The notes below the pieces were generated by a model. The model worked only from the letters and a program-made list of their open reading frames with translations, had not been told where the DNA came from and ran no database searches. This document shows, piece after piece, positions 4,436-27,702 of a DNA stretch of 29,490 nucleotides (the first letter of the stretch is position 1; each line of letters begins with the position of its first letter). The translations under genes were made by a program, and so were the position numbers. The DNA is from a virus: IMG/VR virus record IMGVR_UViG_3300021962_000458, positions 1 through 29,490 of that record. One strand, given 5' to 3'.

Positions 4436-4972
4436 GTGTTCAACTCAATTTTTGAAGACGGTTCTCTAACCCAATATATTGAACAGAACGCACAGGATCC
4501 ATGGATTGGTACGTCATTTCAGGGTTATGTGTTTATGTCTCCCAAACAAAAAGGTGAGTTTGGTGAACGCTTTGTTTCTAAGTATTTTGAAGCCGCTGGT
4601 CATGAAGTCAAACGTGCAAAGACTTCTACTGCTGGACATGATCGTGTGATTGATAACATTCTTACTGAAATTAAGTTCTCTCTTGCCACCCGTGACAAGA
4701 AAGGTGGTGTGAAAGAAGATCAGTTCATTATCAATCACGTTTCTAAGAATAAAGATTGGGAACGTCTTGTGTTCTTTGGTATTAATAATACTGAAGAAGG
4801 TTCTCGTTTGTTTTGGTTTACAAAAGAGGATTTTTTGAATCACCTGGAATCTAATGATTGCTTGTTTGCTCCACAGCAAGGTGGTAAATCTATCGGAAAT
4901 GATGATTACATTTGTACAAAAGTGAATAATCTGGTAGAATGTAATTTTGTGAAGTCTATTAGCGAATGGTGA
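4436..4972 (+). CDS. PD-(D/E)XK nuclease-like protein, putative restriction endonuclease, 178 aa
   Basis: Reads from a GTG (4436); an ATG at residue 34 is a possible alternative. The core is KGEFGERFVSKYFEAAGHEV followed by D69 (AGHDRV) and E78-I-K80 (LTEIKFSL). This is the helix/strand order of the PD-(D/E)XK fold, with Asp, Glu and Lys in catalytic spacing. Downstream strands WERLVFFGI and RLFWFT fit the rest of the core. It overlaps the DNA methyltransferase gene by 7 bases, the arrangement expected for a type II restriction-modification pair. The fold is fairly sure; its specificity and whether it really cleaves DNA are inference. Confidence 0.65.
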   Translation: MFNSIFEDGSLTQYIEQNAQDPWIGTSFQGYVFMSPKQKGEFGERFVSKYFEAAGHEVKRAKTSTAGHDRVIDNILTEIKFSLATRDKKGGVKEDQFIINHVSKNKDWERLVFFGINNTEEGSRLFWFTKEDFLNHLESNDCLFAPQQGGKSIGNDDYICTKVNNLVECNFVKSISEW

Positions 4973-12258: not shown

Positions 12259-13089
12259 TTAGTTTGCATAGAACCAGTAGTAACCTTTCCAACTGTAATG
12301 ACCAGGATTGCGTAAACTTTTGATCAGTCCACTAGTCTTTGCTCCAGGTGCAATAGATCGTACGGCAAATGCAATTGACTCGTATCTGCCTTCTATTTCT
12401 CCTGTTTTTTTATTTACGGCAAAGACCGCCTTTTTCTTAGGTTTATCTTCCAAAATCTCCCATTTGTACCCATAGGCAGTTCCACCTTTTCTGGCGGCAA
12501 GTAGAATGTTACTATTCTTATTTGCATCGCCCGTAAGAGATTGTGCTGCCATACGAGCATTCTCATAATCAGTACACAATCCAGTTTCTAGATTCTTACC
12601 TCTTATCTTTAATCCTGAATGTTTACCATTACCTCTGTTTTTCTCAGTTAGACAACCCCACGAATTCTTTTTTGATCTTTCTGTTAATGATGTGGATATG
12701 TTTTGTATGCGAGATTCAGTTAATACTTTCTGTGATGCTTTTGTAGATATCTTCTTTTTAGTTTCTTCTGAAAATACAACTTTATCTCCATCACTTGTTG
12801 AGTCTAGAGACTGTACATTATATCCTTCTGCACTTTCAAATGCATTATAATGACTTATCCAATATGCTTCTCTTTCATTTAATAAACTCTCATCACATTC
12901 ATCTATTTCCTGAATACTGAATCTATGATTACCATATTTACGCATTGCGGAATGTAATGGTTTGCTACTCATTCTCATTGCTTCTTGTATGTGTTGTTGC
13001 CAACGCTTATTCATTCCCTGAGTGGTTTGTCCAATGTATTTGTGACCGTTTTCTTTGTTTGTAATTAAGTAAATAATACCTCTACTCAT
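12259..13089 (-). CDS. GIY-YIG homing-type endonuclease with NUMOD-like repeats, 276 aa
   Basis: The only convincing full-length minus-strand gene. Start at MSRGIIYLITN; an upstream in-frame ATG would add 7 residues. The catalytic domain (residues 1-90) has GIIYLI, KYIGQTTQ, the Arg in MNKRWQQH and the Glu in LNEREAYWISHYN. A NUMOD3-like stretch (FSEETKKKIS) comes next, then two NUMOD1-like units (GLCTDYENARMAAQSLTG and EGRYESIAFAVRSI), each ending with an aromatic YGYKWEI or WKGYYWFY strand. These bind DNA in homing enzymes. It lies next to an oxygenase gene remnant, consistent with invasion of that gene. Confidence 0.86.
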   Translation of the reverse strand: MSRGIIYLITNKENGHKYIGQTTQGMNKRWQQHIQEAMRMSSKPLHSAMRKYGNHRFSIQEIDECDESLLNEREAYWISHYNAFESAEGYNVQSLDSTSDGDKVVFSEETKKKISTKASQKVLTESRIQNISTSLTERSKKNSWGCLTEKNRGNGKHSGLKIRGKNLETGLCTDYENARMAAQSLTGDANKNSNILLAARKGGTAYGYKWEILEDKPKKKAVFAVNKKTGEIEGRYESIAFAVRSIAPGAKTSGLIKSLRNPGHYSWKGYYWFYAN

Positions 13090-13335
13090 TTTTATTATGC
13101 TAGACAACACTCTGTATTTATGATATGCAATACTTATTTTATAGTATACAACACTCTTATGGAAAAGTCTGTGGAAATTGTGGAAATTGTGGAAACTATT
13201 GAAAAAACTATAAGTAATGTTTTGTTTTCTTTATAAATATCCGTTCTTATTGTAAGCTTAGTCAACGTACCATAAGACGCGCAGTTTGTCAAGCCCCACG
13301 CCGCCGAAAATTATGAGACCCACACAATCTTATAA
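13090..13335. other. AT-rich non-coding stretch upstream of the minus-strand GIY-YIG gene
   Basis: No convincing gene. It holds a direct repeat ACAACACTCT (13104-13113 and 13148-13157) and a run of three 9-base GTGGAAATT units near 13170. A TATTTATG at 13115-13122 reads CATAAATA on the minus strand and could be a late promoter for the endonuclease. A possible minus-strand sigma70 promoter is TTGACA (13292-13287), 17 bases, TACGTT (13269-13264). A TATAAATA at 13232 on the plus strand has no gene behind it. Confidence 0.4.
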
Positions 13336-14429: not shown

Positions 14430-14864
14430 ATGTCCATCACCCTGACCGCTTCCTACAAAGAGATGCTCAACGCTGAAACCGTTGAGAAGATTGATGAGTT
14501 GCTGGATGAACAGTATGCTCTGGAAGACATGCTGGAGTTCATTGATGAGTACAATGAGCAAGACTTCGTGTCTTTCTATGAGGAATATGTGCGTTGTGGT
14601 GAGGCAATTGGTTATGAGGCAGTTGATGCCCTGATTGGTGAAATGGGCAGCGTTTGTGATGTTGAGGACTGTGATGAGCGTTATCAGGGTTGCTATGAAA
14701 ATGAGGCAGACTTTGCCGAAGAATTCTATTCTGATCTGTATGATCTTCCCTGTGCAATTGTGGTAGACTGGGAGGCAACTTGGGAGCAGAATCTTCGTTA
14801 TGATTTTACTGCCTGTAATGATGGCACTTCGTATCGTTCGTGCCACATCTTTCGTGATTGCTGA
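14430..14864 (+). CDS. ArdA-like antirestriction protein, 144 aa
   Basis: The start is fixed by the promoter and leader (ACATTCGTACCTGAGG). The protein is very acidic. Its C-terminal half, ECD/ERYQGCYENEADFAEEFYSDLY followed by VDWEATWEQNLRYDF, matches the end of ArdA proteins; the middle (LEFIDEYNEQDFVSFYEEY) fits the central ArdA domain. ArdA is a B-DNA mimic that blocks type I restriction enzymes. It is somewhat shorter than plasmid ArdA (about 165), lacking part of the N-terminal domain. Combined with the phage methyltransferase it indicates strong pressure from host restriction. Confidence 0.76.
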   Translation: MSITLTASYKEMLNAETVEKIDELLDEQYALEDMLEFIDEYNEQDFVSFYEEYVRCGEAIGYEAVDALIGEMGSVCDVEDCDERYQGCYENEADFAEEFYSDLYDLPCAIVVDWEATWEQNLRYDFTACNDGTSYRSCHIFRDC

Positions 14865-14868
14865 TTAA

Positions 14869-14960
14869 AATCTCGTCAAGATATCTCGTCGAGATGTGTG
14901 TGATACATACATCTCGACACACATGACGAGATATATCACACGATGTATAATCTCGTCATG
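14869..14960. repeat. large composite inverted repeat made of ATCTCGTCGAGAT motifs
   Basis: A perfect ATCTCGTCGAGAT lies at 14883-14895, inside a longer structure. ATATCTCGTC (14881-14890) pairs with GACGAGATAT (14925-14934), and ATGTGTGT (14894-14901) pairs with ACACACAT (14917-14924). More half-sites follow at 14871-14876 and 14950-14956. The structure lies between the ArdA-like gene and the tRNA gene. Confidence 0.78.
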
Positions 14961-14968
14961 ATATATGA

Positions 14969-15053
14969 GGGAGCATGGTGGAATCGGTAGACACACCAGA
15001 CTTAAAATCTGTTGACCGTTAAGGTCGTGGGAGTTCAAGTCTCCCTGCTCCTA
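14969..15053 (+). tRNA. tRNA-Leu (anticodon UAA)
   Basis: 85 bases with all arms of a long-variable-loop tRNA. The acceptor GGGAGCA pairs with TGCTCCT (a G-U pair at the end). The anticodon stem CCAGA/TCTGT encloses CTTAAAA with anticodon TAA. A variable arm with GACC/GGTC is present, and the T arm is GGGAGTTCAAGTCTCCC. The 3' CCA is not encoded. tRNA-Leu(UAA) is frequent in T4-like cyanophages, and the AT-rich late genes would use many UUA codons. Confidence 0.95.
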
Positions 15054-16740: not shown

Positions 16741-17637
16741 ATGAAGAACCTCCACCAAGAGCACCCCGAAGACACCATCCTCACGGGTGACCTGAGCGTG
16801 CTGGACTGGTTCGTGACGCCTGGCACCCTGAGCGTTAAGATCGACGGAGCACCCGCAATCGTGTGGGGGATTGATCCTGCGACTGGTACGTTCTTCGTGG
16901 GCACCAAAGCAGTCTTCAACAAAAAGAAGATTCGTATTGCACACAATCATCAGGAGATTGATCAACACTATGAGGGCAACGTTGCAGACATTCTGCACAC
17001 TTGCTTTGACATTCTGCCCCGTACTGAGACAATCTATCAGGCAGAGTTCATCGGGTTCGGTGGATCTGATGAGTACAAATCCAACCTGATTACGTATCAG
17101 TTCCCTGAGATTGTCACTCAAACTATTATCATCGCACCCCATACCTGCTATTATGCTGAGCACGATCTTCGTGATGCTGTTGCTATGCCTGACCGTGCTA
17201 CGTGGAATGACACTGACACGATCAAATTCGTGAAACCTGATGCCTACATTCTGCACAATCAGGAATCGTTCGCTGATGTTCAAGAGGTATGCAACTTCGC
17301 CCGCCAGATGTCAACCACCGTACAGTTCGTGACTAATGCACAAGCGGCAAAGATTAAAGTTGCAATTAACGCCTGCATCCGCGAACAGCGTGAGGTTGAG
17401 GATGTTGCATTTGATTGTGACCCTAACCTGATTCGTTTGTGGAAGTTGGTGAAGTCAATCAAAGAGGATTGCCTATTCTTGTGCCGCAATAATGGTCCTG
17501 CAGCATACATCGGGCAGGATCGGATTGATGCCGAAGGTTACACAATGACCAATGAGTTTGGTATGTTCAAACTGGTCAATCGTGAGGTATTCTCCTACCA
17601 TAATTTCAACAGCGGGCGCTTTCAGTGTGCCGCCTGA
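16741..17637 (+). CDS. ligase-fold nucleotidyltransferase-like protein, 298 aa
   Basis: Start in ACCGATG after its own promoter. K33-I-D-G in LSVKIDGAPAIVWG is motif I of covalent nucleotidyltransferases (DNA/RNA ligases, capping enzymes), where Lys forms the AMP adduct. GTFFVGTKAVFN resembles motif III and YQAEFIGFG an acidic motif IIIa or IV. TIKFVKPDAY with two Lys could be motif V. No OB-fold or adenylation accessory domain is evident. It may seal or tag nucleic acid; the substrate is not readable. Codon use begins to shift to C-ending codons here. Confidence 0.68.
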   Translation: MKNLHQEHPEDTILTGDLSVLDWFVTPGTLSVKIDGAPAIVWGIDPATGTFFVGTKAVFNKKKIRIAHNHQEIDQHYEGNVADILHTCFDILPRTETIYQAEFIGFGGSDEYKSNLITYQFPEIVTQTIIIAPHTCYYAEHDLRDAVAMPDRATWNDTDTIKFVKPDAYILHNQESFADVQEVCNFARQMSTTVQFVTNAQAAKIKVAINACIREQREVEDVAFDCDPNLIRLWKLVKSIKEDCLFLCRNNGPAAYIGQDRIDAEGYTMTNEFGMFKLVNREVFSYHNFNSGRFQCAA

Positions 17638-17712: not shown

Positions 17713-18135
17713 ATGACAACACTTGCTCAGCAGATGAAAGAGAAGTTCTTTGCCGAAGGGCACGAACTTCCTGACTGCGTCAATCACGGTTGCGACCGTA
17801 AAGTATTAGTTCGTGAGTGGAAGTACTGGTCATTCAAGTCTGAATGTTCCCGTTGTACTGATGCTCGCAAAAAGGGTAAAACCATACCTGGCGTTACAAT
17901 TCACAAAAAGAACTTTTGTGAGAATGTAGACGGTCAATTGGGTTGGGTTTGCCCTGTCCCCCGCGATGGATGGGTTGGGTTTGAGAATAGTTTGGACCTG
18001 GACCACATTGACGGCGATCACCACAACAATGTGCCCGCCAATGTCAAGACCTACTGCAAACTCTGCCACGGCAAAAAGTCACTGATCAACGGTGATTGCA
18101 ACAGTAACAAACAATCCCGCCGCACGATTGACTGA
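17713..18135 (+). CDS. HNH endonuclease, 140 aa
   Basis: The start ATG 17713 fits the promoter. The C-terminal half has the HNH core: LDLDHIDGDHHNN, then NVKTYCKLCHGKKS, with catalytic His, Asn and a Cys pair for zinc. The N-terminal part has two more Cys pairs (CVNHGC and CSRC) that may form a separate zinc knuckle. It may be a free-standing homing nuclease or a DNA nicking enzyme. Intact length, ATG-overlapping membrane gene behind it. Confidence 0.85.
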   Translation: MTTLAQQMKEKFFAEGHELPDCVNHGCDRKVLVREWKYWSFKSECSRCTDARKKGKTIPGVTIHKKNFCENVDGQLGWVCPVPRDGWVGFENSLDLDHIDGDHHNNVPANVKTYCKLCHGKKSLINGDCNSNKQSRRTID

Positions 18136-18284: not shown

Positions 18285-18462
18285 ATACTTTTCTTTTTTT
18301 TTATTTCATGGCAGGGGGCGTGGCGACCGTTTTCGTCATCAGGGCTACCCCGCCCCTCCTTCGCTTGTGTCCGTATTATACGCATCAGGATGCCCGCAAA
18401 ACCTGCATCGTGTGCCACTTTTCGGACTGTCCATGAACCCGTCCGCTGACCCGCTCATGCCC

Positions 18463-18492
18463 TATACTGATCTCAGTTCACAAGGCAACCCA
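18463..18492 (+). promoter_or_regulatory. TATACT box and CTCAGTTCAC leader
   Basis: TATACT (18463-18468) followed by GATCTCAGTTCACAAGG, first copy of the third leader family. Between the terminator at 18284 and this box about 180 bases hold no gene I can support. Confidence 0.6.
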
Positions 18493-18732
18493 ATGCGCCT
18501 CAAGCAAGTGACCACCACCAGCACCGAAGTGGAACTGGCAGACGGCACCTGCGTGCTGTTCTCCTACCAGACCCCTGTCGCCGCCCTGGTGCCTGGCAAG
18601 GGTTGGATTCGCACCGCCACCAAGTGGAGCGTGACCACCTCTAAGCACATTAACCGCTGGCTAGCAGAGAACTGCGGCGGTGAAGTGGCAACCGTGCCAC
18701 AATGGGAACTGGACCAACTGGTGGCGTTCTGA
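18493..18732 (+). CDS. small hypothetical protein, 79 aa
   Basis: Start fixed by the leader. A beta-rich N part (LKQVTTTSTEVELADGTCVLF), then TPVAALVPGKGWIRT and TKWSVTTSKHINRWL. I recognise this layout from small phage proteins in which a strand-rich domain ends with a helix, but it has no known function. Codons end mostly in C or G, unlike the left part of the window. Confidence 0.72.
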   Translation: MRLKQVTTTSTEVELADGTCVLFSYQTPVAALVPGKGWIRTATKWSVTTSKHINRWLAENCGGEVATVPQWELDQLVAF

Positions 18733-18746
18733 GGGGCGCCACCCCC

Positions 18747-18774
18747 TATAATTCTCTCACACACAATCAACCCG
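18747..18774 (+). promoter_or_regulatory. TATAAT box and TCTCTCAC leader
   Basis: TATAAT (18747-18752) follows the GGGGCGCCACCCCC hairpin-like stretch behind the previous stop. Leader TCTCTCACACAC. Confidence 0.6.
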
Positions 18775-18909
18775 ATGCGCTTCGAAGTTCGTTACAGGAC
18801 CCCCTACGGTTCGCAGCAGTGGCGTTCACAATTCTTCTCAACCCGTGAGGAGGCACAGCGTATGGTAGAATTCTACCGTTCCTGCGGTTCCCCCGCTCAC
18901 ATCGCCTGA
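18775..18909 (+). CDS. very small basic/aromatic protein, 44 aa
   Basis: Start in CCGATG. MRFEVRYRTPYGSQQWRS is a beta-hairpin-like start, followed by a helix TREEAQRMVEFYRSCG. This is the beta-beta-alpha plan of many small cyanophage proteins. Own promoter. Confidence 0.62.
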   Translation: MRFEVRYRTPYGSQQWRSQFFSTREEAQRMVEFYRSCGSPAHIA

Positions 18910-18915
18910 CCTGCT

Positions 18916-19002
18916 ATGCTGACTGGCGTGTTCTTCCTGATCGGTTATGCTATGGGGGCAGGACACCTCCTGCTCCTACAGCGCCTTCTCAACCGCCGCT
19001 GA
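18916..19002 (+). CDS. tiny membrane peptide, 28 aa
   Basis: The ATG lies 6 bases after the previous stop, inside the TGCTATGCT stretch that would be a -10 box in the sister cassettes. A hydrophobic segment (GVFFLIGYAMGAGHLLLL) is followed by a basic end. Probably translated by coupling. Modest evidence. Confidence 0.42.
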   Translation: MLTGVFFLIGYAMGAGHLLLLQRLLNRR

Positions 19003-19007
19003 CGTGC

Positions 19008-19039
19008 TACAATTCTCTCAGTTCACAAGCAATCGACCG
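19008..19039 (+). promoter_or_regulatory. extended -10 TGC-TACAAT and CTCTCAGTTCAC leader
   Basis: TACAAT (19008-19013) with TGC before it, then the TCTCTCAGTTCACAAGC leader and ACCGATG. No -35. Confidence 0.65.
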
Positions 19040-19240
19040 ATGCCCAACCTGGAAACCGATCTGATTAATGCCTGGAACGACACCATGGCAGAACTGACCC
19101 CTGAGGAGCGTAAGATCCTTGCTCAGGGCACCGCTCAGGATTGGGCAAAGGCAATCGCTGAATGTGCCGCTGATCCTACATTCTGGGCTCAAATCGGCAC
19201 CGCTTTTGTCGACGGTTTTGTGAGGGGTGCCACTCGCTGA
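19040..19240 (+). CDS. small helical protein, 66 aa
   Basis: Start in ACCGATG. Acidic N half (ETDLINAWNDTMAELTPEE), Ala-rich middle (WAKAIAECAADP) and a Gly/Phe tail (AFVDGFVRGATR). No motif recognised. Confidence 0.65.
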   Translation: MPNLETDLINAWNDTMAELTPEERKILAQGTAQDWAKAIAECAADPTFWAQIGTAFVDGFVRGATR

Positions 19241-19251
19241 ACCGTCCACTA

Positions 19252-19285
19252 GGGGGCACAGACCCCCTTCCCGACCCCCTATACT
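19252..19285 (+). promoter_or_regulatory. G/C hairpin and TATACT box
   Basis: GGGGG (19252-19256), loop CACAGA, CCCCC (19263-19267), then TATACT (19280-19285) and the GATCTCAGTTCAC leader. The loop sits where the -35 belongs but is not consensus. Confidence 0.6.
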
Positions 19286-19311
19286 GATCTCAGTTCACAC
19301 CACACCACACC

Positions 19312-19476
19312 ATGACCACCGCAACCCGCCTCACCGCCTCCGAAGCACGCTGCGCGATCTACGACCTGGCAGACCTCTATTCCTGGGAGACTGTTGCCCG
19401 TGAGATGATCTGCAACATGAGTGGCGATCAGGCACGGGAGTTTGTGGAAGACTTCCAGCGCCTCTATGCCGACTGA
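19312..19476 (+). CDS. small helical protein, 54 aa
   Basis: An Ala-rich helix (LTASEARCAIYDLADLYS) is followed by VAREMICNMSGDQAREF and an acidic end. Two Cys. Own promoter and leader. Function unknown. Confidence 0.62.
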   Translation: MTTATRLTASEARCAIYDLADLYSWETVAREMICNMSGDQAREFVEDFQRLYAD

Positions 19477-19490
19477 GGCACTGGCACAAG

Positions 19491-19525
19491 GGGGCATCCT
19501 GCCTCCTCCCCCGACCCTGTAGACT
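19491..19525 (+). promoter_or_regulatory. G/C hairpin and TAGACT box
   Basis: A GGGG run (19490-19494) and CCCCC (19508-19512) enclose a pyrimidine-rich loop. TAGACT (19520-19525) follows, then TCTCTCAGTTCACAAGC. Confidence 0.55.
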
Positions 19526-19551
19526 TCTCTCAGTTCACAAGCAACCGACCG

Positions 19552-19737
19552 ATGACCACCAAAGTGTACGCCGTGATCGCTGGAATTGACTATGAGGGTG
19601 AGGTCTTTGAGACCCTCCGCCTGTTCGATTGCTTTTCCACTGCTGACGCCTACCTGAAGCACCTGGGGGAAGAATACGACTACGCTAAGATGGACACCCG
19701 CGAAGTGTGCATGGAATCCGCCTACGCGGTCGCCTGA
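19552..19737 (+). CDS. small acidic protein, 61 aa
   Basis: Beta-type start (KVYAVIAGIDYEGEVFETL), then a helix with STADAYLKHLGEEYDYAKM. A compact alpha/beta micro-protein of unknown function. The following -10 box overlaps its stop codon. Confidence 0.65.
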   Translation: MTTKVYAVIAGIDYEGEVFETLRLFDCFSTADAYLKHLGEEYDYAKMDTREVCMESAYAVA

Positions 19738-19800
19738 TACAATGGGAGCGGGTGCGCCCTTAAAGACGCCCAACCACAAACCACAATCCCAAATTCTAAC
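19738..19800 (+). promoter_or_regulatory. TACAAT box with a long leader
   Basis: TACAAT (19738-19743) abuts the stop codon. The 57-base leader contains GGGTGCGCCC and ACGCCC and lacks the CTCTCAG motif, so this cassette differs from its neighbours. Confidence 0.45.
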
Positions 19801-19932
19801 ATGACCCGCGAACTCGCTCTCTCCCTGCTCCGCTCTGGCAACGACGGCGCTCAGATCCTGCAGATCCTGGAGACGATCGCCGCCCCTGAGGATGGCACCG
19901 CTGAACCGACCGCCGAAGAAATCCAATTCTGA
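19801..19932 (+). CDS. very small acidic protein, 43 aa
   Basis: MTRELALSLLRSGNDGAQIL has a helix-turn-helix-like rhythm, followed by ILETIAAPEDGTAEPTAEE. Small enough that function cannot be guessed; clean codon bias and its own leader support expression. Confidence 0.58.
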   Translation: MTRELALSLLRSGNDGAQILQILETIAAPEDGTAEPTAEEIQF

Positions 19933-19973
19933 TAGTGGCACAACGGAGGGGGACACCCCTTCCCTTTTGCCTC

Positions 19974-20002
19974 TATACTGATCACAGATCAGACAACCAC
20001 CG
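19974..20002 (+). promoter_or_regulatory. TATACT box and leader behind a G/C hairpin
   Basis: GGGGG ACA CCCC lies just upstream, TATACT at 19974-19979, then GATCACAGATCAGAC, a variant leader. Confidence 0.55.
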
Positions 20003-20197
20003 ATGACCGAAGACCGCATCCTCTCCCTCTACGAAGACCTGCTCTGCCTGGCAGAGGCAATCGCCAATGAGATGTATGGTTGCGACCTGGACCGCCTGGA
20101 CCCTGAGGAACTGGAATGGTACGGTTCCCGCCTGACGGAGGACAACCTAGAAGAATTGGCAAACGACCTTGCCGCCGCTGCCTGGTTCGCCTACTGA
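20003..20197 (+). CDS. small acidic helical protein, 64 aa
   Basis: Start in ACCGATG. Highly acidic and Leu-rich (EDRILSLYEDLLCLAEAI, then LDRLDPEELEWYGSRL), likely an all-helical bundle. The charge would suit binding to a basic host protein, but nothing specific is seen. Confidence 0.66.
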   Translation: MTEDRILSLYEDLLCLAEAIANEMYGCDLDRLDPEELEWYGSRLTEDNLEELANDLAAAAWFAY

Positions 20198-20202
20198 CCT
20201 GC

Positions 20203-20232
20203 TACAATACTCTCAGATCACACCACAACGCC
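20203..20232 (+). promoter_or_regulatory. extended -10 TGC-TACAAT and leader
   Basis: TGACCTGC-TACAAT (20203-20208), then ACTCTCAGATCACACC. The TGA of TGACCTGC is the stop of the previous gene. Confidence 0.65.
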
Positions 20233-20418
20233 ATGATCGACTTCCGCGCCATCCGCGACTACGGCATCGCCGCCCTGGTGATCATCGCCATCGCAGTCGG
20301 TTACGCTGTGCTACTGAACACCGCAAACGCTAAGATTGAAGCGAAGTGCGCCGCGAACGGGGGACAGGTGCTTGTGACACCTGGAGATGTGTCTAAGTGC
20401 CTCCAACCTGCCCGCTGA
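20233..20418 (+). CDS. small membrane-anchored protein with two Cys, 61 aa
   Basis: A single TM segment (about residues 11-28, GIAALVIIAIAVGYAVLL) follows a charged N terminus. The C-terminal domain of about 30 residues (KCAANGGQVLVTPGDVSKC) carries two Cys and would lie in the periplasm. Own promoter. Confidence 0.65.
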   Translation: MIDFRAIRDYGIAALVIIAIAVGYAVLLNTANAKIEAKCAANGGQVLVTPGDVSKCLQPAR

Positions 20419-20423
20419 CCTGC

Positions 20424-20451
20424 TACAATACTCTCAACCGCAACGCCCCCG
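20424..20451 (+). promoter_or_regulatory. extended -10 TGC-TACAAT and leader
   Basis: TACAAT (20424-20429) preceded by TGACCTGC, as at 20203; leader ACTCTCAACCGC. Confidence 0.62.
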
Positions 20452-20787
20452 ATGCTGCTCACCTCAGGACAGAAGCAACGCCCCCGCCTGGCACAGCAGA
20501 TCTACCGCTTTATGCTGGATCAGGAACCGCTGCTAGGCGCCGCCACCGTCACGGTTCACCACCGCCGCCTGACCGCTGAGGGTGTGGTAGGATGGCAGCA
20601 GCAGGAGGATGCCCACGACTTCCTGATCGACATTGACCGCGACCTGAACCGCAAAGACTACATCCTCACCCTGATCCATGAGTTGGTACACTGCCGCCAA
20701 ACGCTGGAAGGGATGACCTGCGACATCCTGCGGGAGATGGAGGCAGACCACCTGGAATCCGAATACTACGATCGCTTCACCGCCTGA
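20452..20787 (+). CDS. putative HEXXH zinc metallopeptidase-like protein, 111 aa
   Basis: HELVH (residues 76-80) sits in a helix (ILTLIHELVHCRQ). It is followed 17-21 residues later by EMEADHLE, which offers Glu97 or Glu102 as a third zinc ligand, the gluzincin or SprT-like plan. Much shorter than known peptidases, so it may be a minimal domain. The largest gene of the array. The sequence before the motif has a strand pattern (TVTVHHRRLTAEG). Activity is inferred from the motif alone. Confidence 0.62.
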   Translation: MLLTSGQKQRPRLAQQIYRFMLDQEPLLGAATVTVHHRRLTAEGVVGWQQQEDAHDFLIDIDRDLNRKDYILTLIHELVHCRQTLEGMTCDILREMEADHLESEYYDRFTA

Positions 20788-20792
20788 CCTGC

Positions 20793-20822
20793 TATAATTC
20801 TCTGAGATCAACCGACCACCCC
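20793..20822 (+). promoter_or_regulatory. extended -10 TGC-TATAAT and leader
   Basis: Perfect TATAAT (20793-20798) preceded by TGACCTGC; leader TCTCTGAGATCAACC. Confidence 0.68.
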
Positions 20823-21011
20823 ATGTTCATCACCAACGACACCGCCGCCAACGACCCCGCCTGCCAGGCAGCGATGAAAGCATACGCCGCCCAACTGCAG
20901 CGGGAGGAGGAGCAGCGTCAAGCGATCCGCGATGCTCATGCCGCTGGTGACCTGGCGGCAATCGCCAAGTGGGGACGGACTAGCAACTGGTACATCAGCG
21001 ACCGCGACTGA
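20823..21011 (+). CDS. small helical protein, 62 aa
   Basis: An Ala/Gln/Glu-rich long helix (MKAYAAQLQREEEQRQAIR) makes a coiled coil likely. The C terminus, KWGRTSNWYISDRD, is aromatic. No motif. Confidence 0.62.
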   Translation: MFITNDTAANDPACQAAMKAYAAQLQREEEQRQAIRDAHAAGDLAAIAKWGRTSNWYISDRD

Positions 21012-21025
21012 GCGGCAGGACCGAC

Positions 21026-21053
21026 TAAGATACTCTCAAGCGCAACGCCACCG
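21026..21053 (+). promoter_or_regulatory. TAAGAT box and leader
   Basis: TAAGAT (21026-21031) and ACTCTCAAGCGC in the position of the sister elements; the weakest -10 of the array. Confidence 0.45.
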
Positions 21054-21287
21054 ATGACCAACCTCACCGCTTCCTTCTGGTATCTGTCCTGCCTCACCGA
21101 CGCGCAACTGGAAGACGCCTACAACGGCGCCAACCTGACCTGCGACGCCGACCTCTCCGATGCGATCCTCCTGGAGATTCTGAAGAACCGCCCCGCCTTC
21201 TGCCCCCAAGACTACGACCTCCAGTGGGAACTGGAAGACTGGGGATGGAACGGCGGCGCCACTCAAGAGGATCGGGACGCCCGCTGA
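21054..21287 (+). CDS. small acidic protein, 77 aa
   Basis: Start in ACCGATG. Contains LTDAQLEDAYNGANLTCDA and ILLEILKNRPAFCPQDY, then a Trp-rich acidic end (LQWELEDWGWNGG). Helical core with three Cys. Function unknown. Confidence 0.65.
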   Translation: MTNLTASFWYLSCLTDAQLEDAYNGANLTCDADLSDAILLEILKNRPAFCPQDYDLQWELEDWGWNGGATQEDRDAR

Positions 21288-21298
21288 TCTGGCACAAC

Positions 21299-21334
21299 GG
21301 GGGGTCGACAACCCCCCACCCGACCGTCTACAAT
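21299..21334 (+). promoter_or_regulatory. hairpin-embedded promoter
   Basis: GGGGGG (21299-21304), loop TCGACAA, CCCCCC (21312-21317). The loop holds TCGACA (21305-21310), 18 bases before TACAAT (21329-21334). The TCTCTCAGTTCAAAC leader follows. Confidence 0.7.
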
Positions 21335-21357
21335 TCTCTCAGTTCAAACAAACGACC

Positions 21358-21522
21358 ATGACCCGCTACGACGTGATCTGCCCCTCCGCTCCTTGGGAGA
21401 ACACCACCACCGATCAGGACCGCGCATGGGACCTGTGCCTCTCCCTCTCTGAAGAATACGGATACGCTCAGGTCCGCTGCAATGGGGTGATCATCGGAGA
21501 CTACACTGACGGGGGGATCTGA
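21358..21522 (+). CDS. small protein with three Cys, 54 aa
   Basis: MTRYDVICPSAPWENTTTD, then a helix (AWDLCLSLSEEYGYAQ) and a strand (VRCNGVIIGDYTDGG), a beta-alpha-beta micro-fold. Own promoter; its stop begins the 24-base repeat. Confidence 0.62.
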   Translation: MTRYDVICPSAPWENTTTDQDRAWDLCLSLSEEYGYAQVRCNGVIIGDYTDGGI

Positions 21523-21543
21523 CCCCTACGGGGCGGGTTGACC
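21520..21543 (+). repeat. 24-base direct repeat, copy 1
   Basis: Bases 21520-21543 are identical to 22020-22043, exactly 500 bases later. Each copy starts with the stop codon of the upstream gene, holds CCCCTACGGGG and ends in TTGACC. Confidence 0.9.
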
Positions 21544-21568
21544 TCCCGCCCCCCTTATGGACTACAAT
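21530..21568 (+). promoter_or_regulatory. hairpin-embedded promoter
   Basis: GGGGCGGG (21530-21537), loop TTGACCT, CCCGCCCC (21545-21552), a perfect 8-bp stem. The TTGACC in the loop is 19 bases from TACAAT (21563-21568); the leader is TCTCTCAGTTCACC. Confidence 0.78.
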
Positions 21569-21591
21569 TCTCTCAGTTCACCACCCCCACC

Positions 21592-21780
21592 ATGAACGCC
21601 ACCTTCGCTGAGATCCTCTGGAACTGCACCGACCCCAGCAACGGCACCATCCCCTGGAGCACCGCCTGCCAGGCAGCAAAGGAGCACGGGCTCTGGGATG
21701 ACTTCCGCACCGACTATGGGGTGACCGCCAAATTCGGTCCCGTCGATACGGGTGAGTTCCTTGTGTGGTTGGGGTATTGA
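21592..21780 (+). CDS. small protein, 62 aa
   Basis: N part MNATFAEILWNCTDPSNGT, middle ACQAAKEHGLWDDFRTD, C part KFGPVDTGEFLVWLGY. The middle resembles a small helix-turn unit. The last codons GGGGTATTGA form part of the next promoter hairpin. Confidence 0.63.
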   Translation: MNATFAEILWNCTDPSNGTIPWSTACQAAKEHGLWDDFRTDYGVTAKFGPVDTGEFLVWLGY

Positions 21781-21805
21781 CCCCCCACCCCTGACCCTGT
21801 AGAAT
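21771..21805 (+). promoter_or_regulatory. promoter and hairpin overlapping a stop codon
   Basis: GGGG (21771-21774), loop TATTGA, CCCC (21781-21784). TTGACC (21777-21782) contains the TGA stop of the upstream gene and is 17 bases from TAGAAT (21800-21805). The leader differs (TCCAGAGC). Confidence 0.7.
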
Positions 21806-21830
21806 TCCAGAGCAAACCGCAACCGACCCG

Positions 21831-22022
21831 ATGACCACCGCCATCACCCCCGACTTCCAGTTCCGCGTCGTCATCCCCACCGCCGATGGGCTGGAGGTGC
21901 TGGGGTACTTCCGCTCTCTGCTCCGTGCCGCCACCTTCCAGCAGGCAATCATCCTGGAGGACGGTCTGAAGGTGTCGGTGGAGTGGTTCCGCAACGGTCA
22001 CTGGTGGAGTGACTGGGGCTGA
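21831..22022 (+). CDS. small protein, 63 aa
   Basis: A beta strand (FQFRVVIPTADGLEVLGYF), a helix (SLLRAATFQQAIILEDG) and a strand with Trp (KVSVEWFRNGHWWSDWG). A beta-alpha-beta micro-fold similar in plan to 18775 and 21358. Function unknown. Confidence 0.66.
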   Translation: MTTAITPDFQFRVVIPTADGLEVLGYFRSLLRAATFQQAIILEDGLKVSVEWFRNGHWWSDWG

Positions 22023-22043
22023 CCCCTACGGGGCGGGTTGACC
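22020..22043 (+). repeat. 24-base direct repeat, copy 2
   Basis: Identical to 21520-21543. It again runs from the stop codon of one gene into the -35 of the next. Confidence 0.9.
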
Positions 22044-22067
22044 GATCCGCCCCCTACCGACTACAAT
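22030..22067 (+). promoter_or_regulatory. hairpin-embedded promoter
   Basis: GGGGCGG (22030-22036) and CCGCCCC (22047-22053) enclose GTTGACCGAT. TTGACC (22038-22043) is 18 bases from TACAAT (22062-22067). Leader TCTCTCAGTTCACC. Confidence 0.78.
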
Positions 22068-22091
22068 TCTCTCAGTTCACCACCCGAACCG

Positions 22092-22268
22092 ATGATCCTC
22101 TCCCAAGCAACCCGCCTCACCGATCGCCAGACCGTGTGGGTCGCCCGCAAGAATGACGACACCCCCTTCTACAAACTGACCACTGACTACGGCGTGCCCG
22201 CTACCGTCATCGCTGGACAGTTCGCTGATGTGTTCTCCTCTGACGTGGCGGCGCTCCGCCTGGACTGA
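22092..22268 (+). CDS. small protein, 58 aa
   Basis: Start in ACCGATG. MILSQATRLTDRQTVWVAR, then DDTPFYKLTTDYG and an Ala/Val-rich end. A small beta-rich fold is likely. Unknown function. Confidence 0.63.
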   Translation: MILSQATRLTDRQTVWVARKNDDTPFYKLTTDYGVPATVIAGQFADVFSSDVAALRLD

Positions 22269-22282
22269 TTCGTGAGGGGGGT

Positions 22283-22317
22283 GGGGTTCGTGCCCTGCCC
22301 CTGATTCGTGCTACAAT
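22283..22317 (+). promoter_or_regulatory. hairpin and extended -10 TGC-TACAAT
   Basis: GGGG (22283-22286), loop beginning TTCGTG, CCCC (22298-22301), then TGC-TACAAT (22312-22317) and the TCTCTCAGTTCAC leader. The loop hexamer is 19 bases from the -10. Confidence 0.62.
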
Positions 22318-22348
22318 TCTCTCAGTTCACACCTCACCCCATCTGATT

Positions 22349-22591
22349 ATGGCAAAGGCAATCGGAACTGTTCGCGCCTCTGACCTGAACATCAAAGGAC
22401 AGACCGTTCGCTGCAGCAGCGGTGGCGGCATGACCTTTACCCGTGCGCGTGGTCTTGGCGCCGTTATGGTAGAGGACCTTGACTCTGCCATCGCCAATGC
22501 TAAGGCGATCCACCGTGCTGATCGTATCGCTGCCGCCCGTGATCGTTTGGCGGATCGCGTAGACCATTCGCACCTGGCAGTCCGCTTCTGA
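22349..22591 (+). CDS. small basic protein, 80 aa
   Basis: Last gene of the array. Basic, Arg/Ala-rich (KAIHRADRIAAARDRLADR) with a Gly-rich loop (CSSGGGMTFTRARGLG). It could bind nucleic acid. Its start in GATTATG lacks the ACCG context of its neighbours. Confidence 0.64.
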   Translation: MAKAIGTVRASDLNIKGQTVRCSSGGGMTFTRARGLGAVMVEDLDSAIANAKAIHRADRIAAARDRLADRVDHSHLAVRF

Positions 22592-22601
22592 GGACAGATG
22601 T

Positions 22602-22620
22602 GGGGGTGGCACACACCCCC
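22602..22620 (+). terminator. terminator-like hairpin at the end of the array
   Basis: GGGGGTG (22602-22608), loop GCACA, CACCCCC (22614-22620), followed only by TTGCG. Strong stem but poor T tract. Confidence 0.55.
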
Positions 22621-22827
22621 TTGCGTGGGTTCGTGCGATGGGCACGCCCCCGTCGGGGGGGCGGTCGGGCGGCGCCGCCGTGTATATAAAATCGCAAACT
22701 ACCCTAAACTATAAAGTGTTACCCAAGCGAGATCTCTATAACACTCAAAAACAAAAAAATTTTCCCATAAAAAAATTACTCAAAAGGTCGTTTATGATAT
22801 ATAAAAATAAAAATATTCTCTAAGCGC
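22621..22827. other. composition boundary, no gene seen
   Basis: GC-rich inverted runs (CCCCCGTCGGGGG and GGGCGGCGCCGCC) up to about 22680 give way within a few bases to very AT-rich DNA. No supported gene; A-rich tracts and TATATAAAA stretches lie in the right half and may hold the promoter of the next gene. Confidence 0.6.
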
Positions 22828-23001
22828 ATGAAAAAAAATTCCGAGAAAAATAAAAGATCCCTAGAGGTTGATCCAATTAGTGGCGACTATTATGTCAAGA
22901 TACCCGAATGGATTGTAAACGATCTTTGTTGGTACGAAGACACTGAAATTATTTTTAATTTGGAGGGAAAAGACATTATTTTATCCGAAAACGCCGATTG
23001 A
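22828..23001 (+). CDS. AbrB-like small protein, 57 aa
   Basis: A basic N terminus (MKKNSEKNKRS) precedes SGDYYVKIPEWIVNDLCWYE and EIIFNLEGKDIILSE. The strand, P-x-W-[IL] helix, W-Y-E-D-T-E and final strand match the AbrB/MazE swapped hairpin, as at the end of the 2517 gene (YIEFPDDLL...GDTVEW). A possible DNA-binding regulator at the junction of early and late regions. The next promoter's -35 overlaps its stop. Confidence 0.66.
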   Translation: MKKNSEKNKRSLEVDPISGDYYVKIPEWIVNDLCWYEDTEIIFNLEGKDIILSENAD

Positions 23002-23027
23002 AAAATACATAGATAGTGTGTTATAAT
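22998..23027 (+). promoter_or_regulatory. TTGAAA-18-TATAAT promoter with extended -10
   Basis: TTGAAA (22998-23003) includes the TGA stop of the AbrB-like gene; 18 bases later TATAAT (23022-23027) with TGT before it. Drives the glycosyltransferase gene. Confidence 0.7.
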
Positions 23028-23049
23028 ATTGATGTAAACATCTTAACTT

Positions 23050-23805
23050 ATGGCTAAAGGATTTACAGTAAAAGCAAAAACGCCAATCCCACAAAAGGAA
23101 GAAGAGTGGGACTATGATTTGGCAAGAGAAATGGTGAGGGGAAAATCCATCATTTTCTGTCTTCCAGGTAGAGGAGTTTCATACACCTATCTGAAAAGCT
23201 TTGTACAACTTTGTTTTGATCTTGTACAAGCAGGAGCGAGCATCCAAATCTCGCAGGACTATTCATCGATGGTAAATTTTGCCAGATGCAAATGTTTAGG
23301 TGCGAATGTACTGCGAGGACCCGATCAGCTTCCTTGGGACGGCAAATTAAATTATGACTGGCAACTTTGGATTGACAGTGACATTGTTTTCAGTACCGAA
23401 AAGTTCTGGCAATTAATCCTTCTGGACAAAGATATTGCAGCTGGATGGTACTGTACAGAAGACGGGCACACAACTTCGGTTGCACACTGGTTAGACGAAG
23501 AAGATTTTCGTGGTAATGGTGGTGTAATGAATCATGAAACAATTGAAAGTATCTCAAAGCGCCGCAAGCCATTTACGGTTGACTATACTGGTTTCGGATG
23601 GCTTCTGATTAAACACGGAGTCTTTGAGCACTCCGAAATGAAATATCCCTGGTTTGCACCAAAAATGCAAGTCTTCGAATCTGGGGAAGTTCAGGATATG
23701 TGTGGAGAAGATGTGAGTTTCTGTTTGGATGCAAAGGAAGCAGGATTTGAAATTTGGTGCGATCCTCGCATCAGAGTTGGTCACGAAAAAACAAGAATCA
23801 TTTGA
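23050..23805 (+). CDS. GT-A type glycosyltransferase, 251 aa
   Basis: Nucleotide-sugar fold: KSIIFCLPGRGVSY (first strand), SQDYSSMVNFAR, the DxD-type LWIDSDIVF (metal/UDP site, D109-D111), and near residue 220 GEDVSFCLDAKEAGFEIW followed by CDPRIRVGHE. This is the ED-x-x-F-C acceptor signature of family-2-like enzymes. Full length. It may glycosylate phage DNA or virion or host surface sugars; the dehydratase and cupin at the left edge fit a sugar theme. No secretion signal, so it acts in the cytoplasm. Confidence 0.82.
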   Translation: MAKGFTVKAKTPIPQKEEEWDYDLAREMVRGKSIIFCLPGRGVSYTYLKSFVQLCFDLVQAGASIQISQDYSSMVNFARCKCLGANVLRGPDQLPWDGKLNYDWQLWIDSDIVFSTEKFWQLILLDKDIAAGWYCTEDGHTTSVAHWLDEEDFRGNGGVMNHETIESISKRRKPFTVDYTGFGWLLIKHGVFEHSEMKYPWFAPKMQVFESGEVQDMCGEDVSFCLDAKEAGFEIWCDPRIRVGHEKTRII

Positions 23806-23815
23806 AATAAAACAA

Positions 23816-23977
23816 ATGAGCACTCAATACAATATCCTATGTGAGGGTAGAAAAATTTATTCAAATCTTACAGAAGAAGAGTATTTTGATACAATGGAAG
23901 ACCTTGCGCAACAATTTTATGAGCAAGGTTCTCCAAGCCCAGAAGAATTAGAAACTGAAATGATTGAGGGAAATTAA
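23816..23977 (+). CDS. small acidic protein, 53 aa
   Basis: MSTQYNILCEGRKIYSNLTEEE, then an acidic helix (FDTMEDLAQQFYEQG). It lies 10 bases after the glycosyltransferase gene. No motif known. Confidence 0.65.
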   Translation: MSTQYNILCEGRKIYSNLTEEEYFDTMEDLAQQFYEQGSPSPEELETEMIEGN

Positions 23978-23980
23978 AAC

Positions 23981-24130
23981 ATGGCAAAATCTAAAGTTGG
24001 TTTAAATAAGAGTTCTTATATTCCAGGTCCTCCTAAGAAGTCTCGTCAAGGCGATGGTGGTGGGACCAAGTACGCTGCGTCTTCTCGTAATGGAGCACGT
24101 AAAAAGTATAGAGGTCAGGGTAAAGGATGA
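23981..24130 (+). CDS. small very basic Gly/Lys/Ser-rich protein, 49 aa
   Basis: SKVGLNKSSYIPGPPKKSR, then GDGGGTKYAASSRNGARKK and YRGQGKG. Disordered and strongly positive, suited to binding DNA, RNA or an acidic partner. Three bases after the previous gene; its stop overlaps the next ATG. Confidence 0.68.
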   Translation: MAKSKVGLNKSSYIPGPPKKSRQGDGGGTKYAASSRNGARKKYRGQGKG

Positions 24131-25361: not shown

Positions 25362-25763
25362 ATGGCAATTACACGGATATCGAGGACATTTAAGGATATA
25401 AGTTTTGATTTTCAACCTAATCCTGTAACTAAGGACATATCTGTTCTCAAAAATGAATCTGCAATTCGTAGATCTGTGAGAAATTTGGTAGAAACAATTC
25501 CAACTGAAAGATTTTTTAATTCGTTACTTGGATCAGATGTTCGATCAAGTTTATTTAATTTCGTAGATGATGGTACAGCATCTATAATTGCAGATCAGAT
25601 TGAAAATGTTCTTTCAAATTATGAACCTAGAATTGAAAACGTAAAAGTAATTGTCGATCCACAACCAGATCAAAATTCATTTGATGTTAGTATTTTATTT
25701 GAAATTATTGGGCAAGAATTTCCAATTCAAGAATTTAACTTCCTTTTAGAGGCAACAAGATAA
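25362..25763 (+). CDS. 25: baseplate wedge protein gp25, 133 aa
   Basis: The length matches T4 gp25 (132). Contains NESAIRRSVRNLVETIPTERF and LLGSDVRSSLFNF, then YEPRIENVKVIVDP, the core of the gp25/W family. gp25 joins gp6 and gp53 in the wedge and primes sheath assembly. First gene of the late operon, 1 base before gene 6. Confidence 0.93.
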   Translation: MAITRISRTFKDISFDFQPNPVTKDISVLKNESAIRRSVRNLVETIPTERFFNSLLGSDVRSSLFNFVDDGTASIIADQIENVLSNYEPRIENVKVIVDPQPDQNSFDVSILFEIIGQEFPIQEFNFLLEATR

Positions 25764-25764
25764 A

Positions 25765-27702
25765 ATGCCTTTTACTAAATTTACTAACTTAGATTTCGAT
25801 CAAATAAAAACCTCAATAAAAGATTATCTTCGTGCAAATAGTAATTTCACGGACTTTGACTTTGAGGGTTCTAATTTTTCAGTCTTAATTGATACTTTAG
25901 CTTATAATACTTATATTACAGCATTTAACTCGAATATGATTGTAAATGAATCCTTTTTGGATTCTGCAACAATCCGAGAAAATGTTGTTTCTTTAGCTAG
26001 AAATATTGGATATGTACCTAAATCTAGGTCGGCGGCAAGAGCAGAAATAAGTTTTAGTGTATCAGTATCTCAAAATTTAAATAATTTACCAATATCTTTA
26101 GAACCTGGTATTTTATGTGTTGGGGATGCAAATGAAACTTCATTTGTCTTTTCCATACCAGAAAGAATTACAGCAATAGTTAAAAATGGTGTTGCAGTTT
26201 TTGGAACAACAGAAAAACCAATCGTAATATATCAGGGATCATACTTATCAAAACGTTTTGTTGTTGATAGTTCATTGGATCAGAGGTTTATATTAGACAA
26301 TCCATTTATCGATACTTCAACAATAGCAGTTTTTGTTAGAGGTGCATCTGAAAGTGGTGGATTGGGTTCTAGATATATTAAAGTTGATAATATTTTAAAT
26401 ATTAATAAGTTTTCGGATATATTCTTATTACAAGAAGTTCAAGATGAAAAATATGAGTTATTATTTGGAGATGGAATATTTGGTAAAAAGTTAGAGAATA
26501 ATTCTATTGTTAATGTATCGTATATTGTCACTGATGGTAGGGATGGCAATGGCGCGTCATTATTTTCTTTCAGCGGTGTTATTACAGACTCGGCAGGAAA
26601 TAGAGTAGTTCCAACCGATTTTATTGATGTTTCTACAGTATCTCCTGCGAAAAATGGAGGTGATATTGAACCATTATCATCAATTAAGTATTTTGCTCCC
26701 AGATTGTATTCTTCGCAGTATAGAGCAGTTACTTCAAGAGATTATGAGGCTATTATTCAACAAATATACCCAAATACAGAATCCGTTTCTGTCGTTGGTG
26801 GAGAAGAATTAGATCCTCCACAATTTGGAAAAGTTGTAATAAGCATTAAGCCCAGAAATGGTAATTACATTTCAGATTTTGAACGTGAAAATATTTTACT
26901 TAATCTAAAACAATATTCAGTTTCTGGTATAAATCAAGAGATAATTGACCTTAAAGTCCTATATGTTGAAATCGATTCTTCAATATACTATGATACATCC
27001 AAAGTTGATAATTCGGACCAGTTAAAAAGTTTAATTATAGATTCTTTACAAAAATATTCGGAGTCACCAGAAATTAATAAATTTGGTGGAAGATTTAAGT
27101 ATAGTAAAATTCTCCAGTTAATTGATAATGTTGATACTAATACAATAACTTCAAATATCACAAAGGTTAAAATTAGAAGAAATTTAAAGGCGTTAATTAA
27201 CCAGTTCTCTCAATATGAATTATGCTTTGGAAATAGATTTCATATAAATGTTGAAGGAAAGAATATAAAAAGTAGTGGATTTTACATTGAAGGATATACT
27301 AATCCTGTATATTTTACTGACATTCCCAATAAAGATTCTAACGGAAATTTGGATGGAAGTGGTAAAGGTTTTATTTCAATAGTCCAAAAACAGGCAGATG
27401 GAAATTATCAAATCATTGGAAAATCTGGTGGTACAGTAGATTACAATAAAGGTGAAATTAATATATTTGGAGTTGTGATAACATCAACAGTTAAACCAAA
27501 TAATGTTATAGAAGTGCAAGCAAATCCAGAGTCTAATGATGTCGTTGGATTAAAAGATCTATATGTTGAATTTGATCTTTCAAATAGTAAGATAAATATG
27601 GTTAAAGATGTCATATCTTCCGGTGAGGATATATCTGGCGTTACTTTTGTAAGAGATTATTACGTATCAAGTTATTCTAATGGAGTATTAGAGAGGCAAT
27701 AA
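25765..27702 (+). CDS. 6: baseplate wedge protein gp6, 645 aa
   Basis: The N part (FEGSNFSVLIDTLAYNTY, then FLDSATIRENVVSLARNIGY) is the gp6 signature. The baseplate-J-like core, YSSQYRAVTSRDYEAII, then QFGKVVISIKP, lies near residues 310-370. Length is close to T4 gp6 (660). gp6 forms the dimer ring that joins the six wedges around the hub. Very AT-rich codon use, unlike the array. Confidence 0.95.
   Translation: MPFTKFTNLDFDQIKTSIKDYLRANSNFTDFDFEGSNFSVLIDTLAYNTYITAFNSNMIVNESFLDSATIRENVVSLARNIGYVPKSRSAARAEISFSVSVSQNLNNLPISLEPGILCVGDANETSFVFSIPERITAIVKNGVAVFGTTEKPIVIYQGSYLSKRFVVDSSLDQRFILDNPFIDTSTIAVFVRGASESGGLGSRYIKVDNILNINKFSDIFLLQEVQDEKYELLFGDGIFGKKLENNSIVNVSYIVTDGRDGNGASLFSFSGVITDSAGNRVVPTDFIDVSTVSPAKNGGDIEPLSSIKYFAPRLYSSQYRAVTSRDYEAIIQQIYPNTESVSVVGGEELDPPQFGKVVISIKPRNGNYISDFERENILLNLKQYSVSGINQEIIDLKVLYVEIDSSIYYDTSKVDNSDQLKSLIIDSLQKYSESPEINKFGGRFKYSKILQLIDNVDTNTITSNITKVKIRRNLKALINQFSQYELCFGNRFHINVEGKNIKSSGFYIEGYTNPVYFTDIPNKDSNGNLDGSGKGFISIVQKQADGNYQIIGKSGGTVDYNKGEINIFGVVITSTVKPNNVIEVQANPESNDVVGLKDLYVEFDLSNSKINMVKDVISSGEDISGVTFVRDYYVSSYSNGVLERQ

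Follow-up and report, generated by a model that had tools for sequence, protein, structure and literature searches.

The window analysed here is a 29,490-nucleotide viral record from IMG/VR (IMGVR_UViG_3300021962_000458) without end repeats, and the subject of this report is a GC-rich island at positions 18,463–22,591, in which 17 small plus-strand genes of 28–111 amino acids (aa) are arranged mostly as successive promoter-leader cassettes. We consider it probable that a hyperplastic slot here holds a modular expression array, with promoter cassettes that are probably expressed early, are rearranged by recombination and encode small host-directed proteins. A first-pass annotation had placed the island at the correct coordinates and had given the right size range, but counted about 16 micro-genes; the -10 box and leader that it saw before nearly every gene are present at 15 of the 17 (leader of about 16–25 nt, weaker variants counted), and the ACCGATG motif that it reported stands, as ACCGATG or CCGATG, before several of them. 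That annotation mentioned neither the hairpins at many junctions, nor the 5-nt register of stop codon and extended -10 at others, nor the conserved genomic slot. The phage itself is a Kyanoviridae-like (T4-type) cyanophage, as judged from homologs of its gp25 and gp6 in S-PM2, Syn1 and S-SRM01 and from its closest isolate by DNA, Synechococcus phage S-SRM01 (Kyanoviridae; from a reservoir in Singapore), which matches at 76% over 22.7–25.0 kb.

Promoter-leader units and their junctions

The open reading frames (ORFs) of the island span 18,493–22,591, and all 17 end in TGA. The leader pattern TAYAMTNNTCTCAGWTCAC, allowing up to 3 mismatches, matches 11 times in the window, always on the plus strand and inside the island, against 0.73 matches expected by chance, and no shuffle reached 11. 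The -10 box lies 28–32 nt from the ATG in 14 of the 15 leader-bearing genes, and g17 has a longer distance of 37 nt. The 17 proteins show no clear relationship to one another, so the repeated leaders did not arise by tandem gene duplication. The units are as follows.

18463–18732 (+): cassette 1; -10/leader 18463–18492; g1 18493–18732, 79 aa, phrog_5643, homologs in other arrays
18747–18909 (+): cassette 2; leader 18747–18774; g2 18775–18909, 44 aa
18916–19002 (+): g3, 28 aa, hydrophobic; no leader of its own; 6 nt after g2
19008–19240 (+): cassette 4; compact junction with extended -10 (TGCTACAAT); leader 19008–19039; g4 19040–19240, 66 aa
19241–19476 (+): cassette 5; GC hairpin in 19241–19279; leader 19280–19311; g5 19312–19476, 54 aa
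19477–19737 (+): cassette 6; GC hairpin in 19477–19519; leader 19520–19551; g6 19552–19737, 61 aa, phrog_17343
19738–19932 (+): g7 unit; structured intercistronic element at about 19741–19775 in place of the shared leader; g7 19801–19932, 43 aa
19933–20197 (+): cassette 8; GC hairpin in 19933–19973; leader 19974–20002; g8 20003–20197, 64 aa
20203–20418 (+): cassette 9; compact junction; leader 20203–20232; g9 20233–20418, 61 aa; S-PM2 homolog at 23263–23466
20424–20787 (+): cassette 10; compact junction; leader 20424–20451; g10 20452–20787, 111 aa, phrog_10499
20793–21011 (+): cassette 11; compact junction; leader 20793–20822; g11 20823–21011, 62 aa, phrog_14769
21026–21287 (+): cassette 12; weaker leader 21026–21053; g12 21054–21287, 77 aa
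21288–21522 (+): cassette 13; GC hairpin in 21288–21328; leader 21329–21357; g13 21358–21522, 54 aa, phrog_17176
21523–21780 (+): cassette 14; hairpin 21523–21562 with TTGACC in the loop; leader 21563–21591; g14 21592–21780, 62 aa
21800–22022 (+): cassette 15; variant leader (TAGAATTCCAGAGCAAACC) 21800–21830; g15 21831–22022, 63 aa
22023–22268 (+): cassette 16; hairpin with TTGACC 22023–22061; leader 22062–22091; g16 22092–22268, 58 aa
22269–22591 (+): cassette 17; hairpin in 22269–22311; leader 22312–22348; g17 22349–22591, 80 aa

Promoter geometry was evaluated over the multi-locus set described below, using a scoring matrix that covers only the -10 box and the following 13 nt (19 columns). 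TTGAC occurs 56 times within 40 nt upstream of the motif in this set, and 47 of these occurrences leave a spacer of 16, 17 or 18 nt. This spacing and the extended -10 indicate that the shared leaders are sigma-70-type promoters, composed of a -10 alone, an extended -10, or a -35 plus a -10. The promoter is followed by a leader of about 18 nt, which is AC-rich and lacks a Shine-Dalgarno sequence. The late box ATAAATA is absent from the array and present 29 nt before gp25.

The distance from a stop codon to the next -10 shows two main peaks, at exactly 5 nt and at 38–43 nt, with some distances of 12–21 nt. In the compact 5-nt junction (CTGAYCTGCTACAAT), the stop codon is in fixed register with an extended -10 (TGn), an element found in 85% of the compact versus 20% of the hairpin junctions. 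In the long class, a GC hairpin lies immediately upstream of the -10, and in several cases its loop holds TTGAC(C) or has it close by; the window has seven such junctions, before g5, g6, g8, g13, g14, g16 and g17, about half of the total. Only one of their hairpins (19945–19963) has a terminator-like score. As the compact junctions are without a terminator, transcription probably runs on from one cassette into the next, and the transcripts may not be strictly one-gene.

The homologs of g7 lack the shared leader and carry a common structured intercistronic element, GGGARC-stem-CGCCCTTAAAGA-stem (19741–19775 in the window). Changes in its stem are paired (GGGTG/CGCCC, GGCAG/CTGCC, GGGAG/CTCCC and, by eye, GAGCA/TGCTC), and given a GGG–CCC contact the element would be an H-type pseudoknot. 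The element was split by a simple segmentation script, which mis-split four sequences of a second subtype, and MAFFT left the 3' strand unaligned. It had no match in Rfam, where a search with the whole window found a tRNA-Leu as the sole match.

Counterparts in other phages and partial shuffling of cassettes

A scan of IMG/VR DNA with the leader pattern alone yielded at least 119 stretches, and the analysis set comprised 125 loci, 85 of them non-redundant. Most stretches found in this way encode homologs of the window micro-genes, in other orders and with identities of up to 100%. Over the 125 loci, the motif matched 567 times on the majority strand versus 16 times on the opposite strand; 547 matches open an ATG ORF, at a -10-to-ATG distance of 27–34 nt in 90% of the cases (5–95%). 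Cassette genes in the loci listed have a median GC of 0.60 and a median length of 63 aa, and are under purifying selection (median dN/dS, the ratio of nonsynonymous to synonymous rates, 0.20). The 85 non-redundant loci contain 86 cassette families (34 singletons), with up to 20 cassettes per array.

Because these loci had been chosen by their leader, we performed a reverse test in which relatives were fetched by protein (g13, g10 and g17), excluding g7 and the contigs of the leader-first set and subjecting control ORFs to a similar test. A leader was found within 60 nt of 85 of the 170 array-gene homologs, versus none of the 220 ordinary ORFs. The leaderless homologs of g13 and g17 that were inspected still have a hairpin and a -10, and their initiator sequences differ. 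The island finds its best DNA match in S-CREM1, whose one g13 homolog has no leader above threshold. A BLAST search of phages with the 49-nt consensus leader gave no match, the query probably being too short. The modular cassettes with their own promoters, as proposed in the first-pass annotation, are well supported.

S-PM2 (NC_006820.1) has a counterpart at 21.5–24.8 kb (locus L127, 21542–24802), with 11 cassettes recognized by motif and inspection, a GC of 0.568 and hairpins in many junctions. The predicted -10 boxes of these cassettes start at 21542, 21799, 22069, 22313, 22984, 23232, 23472, 23758, 24098, 24313 and 24583. Most of its ORFs are absent from the NC_006820.1 annotation, which in two places has genes on the opposite strand; the cassette ORFs concerned include 21570–21758, 21830–22027, 22097–22264, 23012–23215, 23263–23466, 23503–23718 and 23789–24058.

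Cassettes of the same family with different upstream neighbours share an identity of 0.84 in the motif, 0.50 at -20 to -1 and 0.33 at -40 to -21, and past the stop codon the identity runs 0.59, 0.47 and 0.42 before reaching chance. Neighbour pairs are still adjacent in 44% of the testable cases versus 13.5% in random order, so shuffling of the array is partial and some polarity is retained. Leaders move independently of the genes: among 35 pairs of g13 whose coding sequences are at least 93% identical, 21 differ in leader class. L011 and L105, two loci from different metagenomes, are identical over 2,058 nt except at 7 positions, and 4 of these fall within a 6-nt stretch of the -10 block; this four-base change (TATACTGAT to TACAATACT) connects two leader alleles that are both common elsewhere. 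The same four substitutions, and none besides in the flanks that were compared, separate L087 from L011, and the change between L011 and L105 looks like short-patch conversion. Leader similarity showed a small excess both by family and by locus, without strong within-genome homogenisation. Cassette gain and loss by recombination at the shared leaders, for which a comparison of gene order in relatives had been suggested as a check, fits these data.

The arrays occupy a fixed slot upstream of the baseplate genes gp25–gp6, bordered in the window by the following genes.

16741–17637 (+): DUF6267 gene (phrog_455), upstream border of the slot
22828–23805 (+): downstream border of the slot, phrog_661 gene 22828–23001 (57 aa) and 251-aa gene 23050–23805
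25362–27702 (+): baseplate genes gp25 and gp6, a fixed landmark about 3 kb downstream of the arrays

Among arrays of at least three cassettes, the DUF6267 gene lies upstream in 26 of the 35 with at least 2 kb of upstream sequence, the phrog_661 and/or 251-aa gene downstream in 51 of the 53 with at least 1.5 kb of downstream sequence, and gp25 behind the array in all 27 with at least 5 kb; the DUF6267 gene, the array, the phrog_661/251-aa pair and gp25 are all on one strand. The phrog_661 protein, encoded directly behind most arrays, is a candidate regulator of the leaders; its relative in S-SRM01 is annotated as 'DNA-binding domain-containing'. An HNH endonuclease-like gene (17713–18135) just left of the array in the window is rare, with 3 of 77 arrays having it; on the minus strand, the window has a GIY-YIG endonuclease gene at 12259–13110.

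Timing, function and competing explanations

From the sigma-70 geometry and the absent late box (late promoters TATAAATA), we infer that the array is expressed early. Cyanomyoviruses lack alt, modA and modB, and their early genes are thought to be read by unmodified host RNA polymerase (RNAP) (PMC2984593). A cassette gene of S-PM2, S-PM2p073 in the original numbering, corresponds to S-PM2d241 (14,805–15,005) after a 9,540-nt deletion and a 2-nt offset; RNA-seq taken 3 h after infection registered counts for S-PM2d241, with an increase of about 2-fold under phosphorus depletion (PMC10976474). In S-PM2 (S-PM2p068; 22340–22774) and in L098 (phrog_36653), one of the cassettes carries an ArdA-like anti-restriction gene, and g10 has a HELVH (HExxH) motif and weak similarity to the metallopeptidase DUF6782. 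The 3-h transcript, the purifying selection, the ArdA-like cassette and the HExxH motif make a host-directed early function of the cassette genes likely. The window also has an ArdA-like gene outside the array, at 14430–14864, whose relatives lie inside the array in S-PM2 and L098.

In the proposed mechanism, each unit would run from a GC hairpin or a bare stop codon through a sigma-70-type promoter and a leader to a GC-rich micro-gene ending in TGA. Host RNAP would read every unit upon DNA entry, and the resulting mRNAs, probably early ones, would be numerous and either short or in part extended by read-through. With a shared promoter-leader at each junction, recombination among cassettes, or among co-infecting phages, could add, drop, swap or re-promoter genes while leaving expression intact. 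The products are probably dispensable, host-directed small proteins acting in counter-defence or host modulation. What the sequences establish directly is the promoter geometry, the boundaries of the cassettes, their partial shuffling, the swapped leader alleles, the fixed slot and the purifying selection; the early timing, the part played by recombination and the action on the host are inferences.

Several observations weigh against this reading. Over all junctions, the hairpins are only moderately in excess of shuffled sequences (mean z -1.09), and they are followed by CCGACC-type sequence instead of a U-tract, so they are not canonical terminators. The loci were picked by leader, so conservation in the 19 scored columns is partly by construction, and about half of the protein-first homologs fell below the leader threshold. 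Since part of the array order is conserved, shuffling is constrained, and the clean 4-nt leader conversion is one event only. Most micro-genes have no assigned function: searches of Pfam, NCBIfam, PADLOC and PHROGs gave a few PHROG matches, almost all of unknown function.

An alternative is that the leader serves mainly as an operator: a regulator from phage or host, such as the putatively DNA-binding product of the small gene that follows the array, would bind the TCTCAGTTCAC block beyond the -10 and control the array as one regulon, with modularity as a by-product. Motif positions 9–18 carry about 1.1–2.0 bits per column, high to about +5 and then falling to mere A/C richness, a drop sharper than homogenisation alone predicts, and in 45 of the 53 cases a phrog_661 gene lies behind the array. 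However, the same gene can stand behind several leader alleles, some of which lack TCTCAGTTCA (TAAGGGAACC, TTCCATCGTTCAC), the phrog_661 gene persists in S-SRM01 although just two motif genes are present there, the motif columns reflect ascertainment in part, and binding by a regulator is putative. We regard this explanation as unlikely, albeit worth keeping in mind. It is similarly doubtful, though conceivable, that a phage-specific regulator or RNAP-associated factor recognises TCTCAGTTCAC, such that any gene gaining the junction of about 45 nt would join one coordinated early regulon and at least 86 interchangeable cassette families would be pooled among cyanophages.

A second alternative concerns base composition. 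GC is 0.55–0.63 in the island versus 0.25–0.43 in the right flank and 0.46–0.51 just upstream, so the contrast with both flanks described in the first-pass annotation is sharp on the right but gradual at the left edge; across arrays, the mean GC is 0.575, versus 0.376 downstream and 0.44 upstream. The array genes have a GC of 0.55–0.64 (about 0.59 overall) and a third-position GC (GC3) of 0.73, and the flanking genes a GC3 of 0.14–0.56. GC-biased repair at a recombination hotspot, instead of codon selection, could have produced this richness, given the frequent recombination in the array and the shift of both NNY and NNR codons to GC. Against this, GC3 exceeds the intergenic GC of 0.58, and in the Thr, Pro, Ala and Ser boxes the G-ending codons (0.06–0.10) are rarer than the T-ending ones (0.16–0.30), with C-ending codons dominant. 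C-ending codons dominate generally and NNA codons are mostly avoided; ACG, CCG, TCG and GCG are rare despite this, and plain GC bias is therefore an insufficient explanation. Biased repair is thus a possible but rather improbable source of the GC richness. The codon tuning to the host suggested earlier is supported in part by this pattern. As a separate observation, GATC occurs at 9.5 per kb in 18400–22600 versus about 4.5 per kb in the flanks; it is also part of one leader allele, and a Dam-like methylase gene lies at 4966–5733 of the window.

It is also quite improbable, more so than the two preceding alternatives, that transcription of the array yields a single long polycistronic mRNA or a small number of them, made late or constitutively, with the repeated leaders of little weight. 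The compact junctions leave no room for a terminator, the hairpins end without U-tracts, and g3 and g7 have no shared leader, all as this explanation would have it; set against these are the promoter geometry at nearly every gene, including the -35 spacing and the extended -10, and the missing late box. Recent acquisition of a not yet ameliorated island from a host, plasmid or satellite agrees with its GC of 0.59 versus about 0.38 downstream and its host-like codons, but is very improbable, as the same families, slot and GC contrast recur in dozens of diverged contigs and in S-PM2, plasmid relatives are lacking except for weak matches of g1 in Variovorax and Achromobacter, and the leader pattern has only 4 matches in GTDB genomes, none cyanobacterial.

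Under the preferred reading, that of a modular expression array, the island looks like a plug-in slot for small genes that probably act on the host. How phages gain and lose their small uncharacterised genes is an open question, and here the exchange unit, its promoter and its slot are visible at the nucleotide level and traceable across dozens of uncultured cyanophages. The cultured S-PM2/S-PM2d on Synechococcus WH7803 offers the 11-cassette version together with published infection RNA-seq, and the leader motif is a handle for finding more small, probably host-directed proteins.

Comparison with known systems

A literature search returned no description of dense cassette arrays in cyanophages, which is not proof of absence. 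The nearest parallel is the promoter-early stem-loops (PeSLs) of T4-type phages, reportedly described by Arbiol and co-workers in 2010 and Comeau and co-workers in 2014. The array shares with what is reported of PeSLs a stem-loop beside a promoter, here probably early, between small variable genes of hyperplastic regions, that acts as an exchange point between otherwise unrelated sequences. The present array differs in that hairpins without a U-tract stand directly before the -10, the promoters have host-like or extended -10 boxes, a second and hairpin-free junction type has its stop codon fused to an extended -10, the unit includes a constant leader of about 18 nt, and the arrays are dense, GC-rich and located at one fixed slot. 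A composite of stem-loop and promoter was found at the hairpin junctions (38–43 nt from stop to -10) and not at the compact ones, an intrinsic terminator (stem plus U-tract) was not found, and exchange points were evident from the homology decay at leader and stop, the shuffled order and the leader-allele swaps.

The first-pass annotation had drawn a parallel with a small-ORFan region of S-PM2. If the published ORFanage (5.8–15.3 kb) was meant, this is the wrong region, the true counterpart being at 21.5–24.8 kb: in the first 30 kb of S-PM2, a window protein matches only once, at 23.3 kb. The ORFanage is likewise a cyanomyovirus cluster of small ORFans with variable order (PMC4503421), but it is rich in AT (GC 0.383), its genes abut or overlap, and it has no leader array. 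Membership in it was rejected, as no homologous genes occur there and layout and GC differ. Puxty et al. 2015 considered PeSL-type shuffling of the ORFanage unlikely, since promoters and stem-loops are sparse there (PMC4503421).

More distantly, the haloviruses HF2 and HGTV-1 have a repeated intergenic promoter motif before many ORFs, and HGTV-1 also an inverted repeat, already likened to PeSLs (PMC8707807; PMC3950731); these are archaeal viruses with TATA-type promoters, and HF2 makes very long transcripts. The g15–g18 hyperplastic region of marine cyanomyoviruses is also a variable insert in a structural module, but it differs in position, carries metabolic genes and has no repeated leaders described (PMC2984593). 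Although strict PeSL membership fails on the terminator, the array is best called one that, from its layout, would function like PeSL cassettes.

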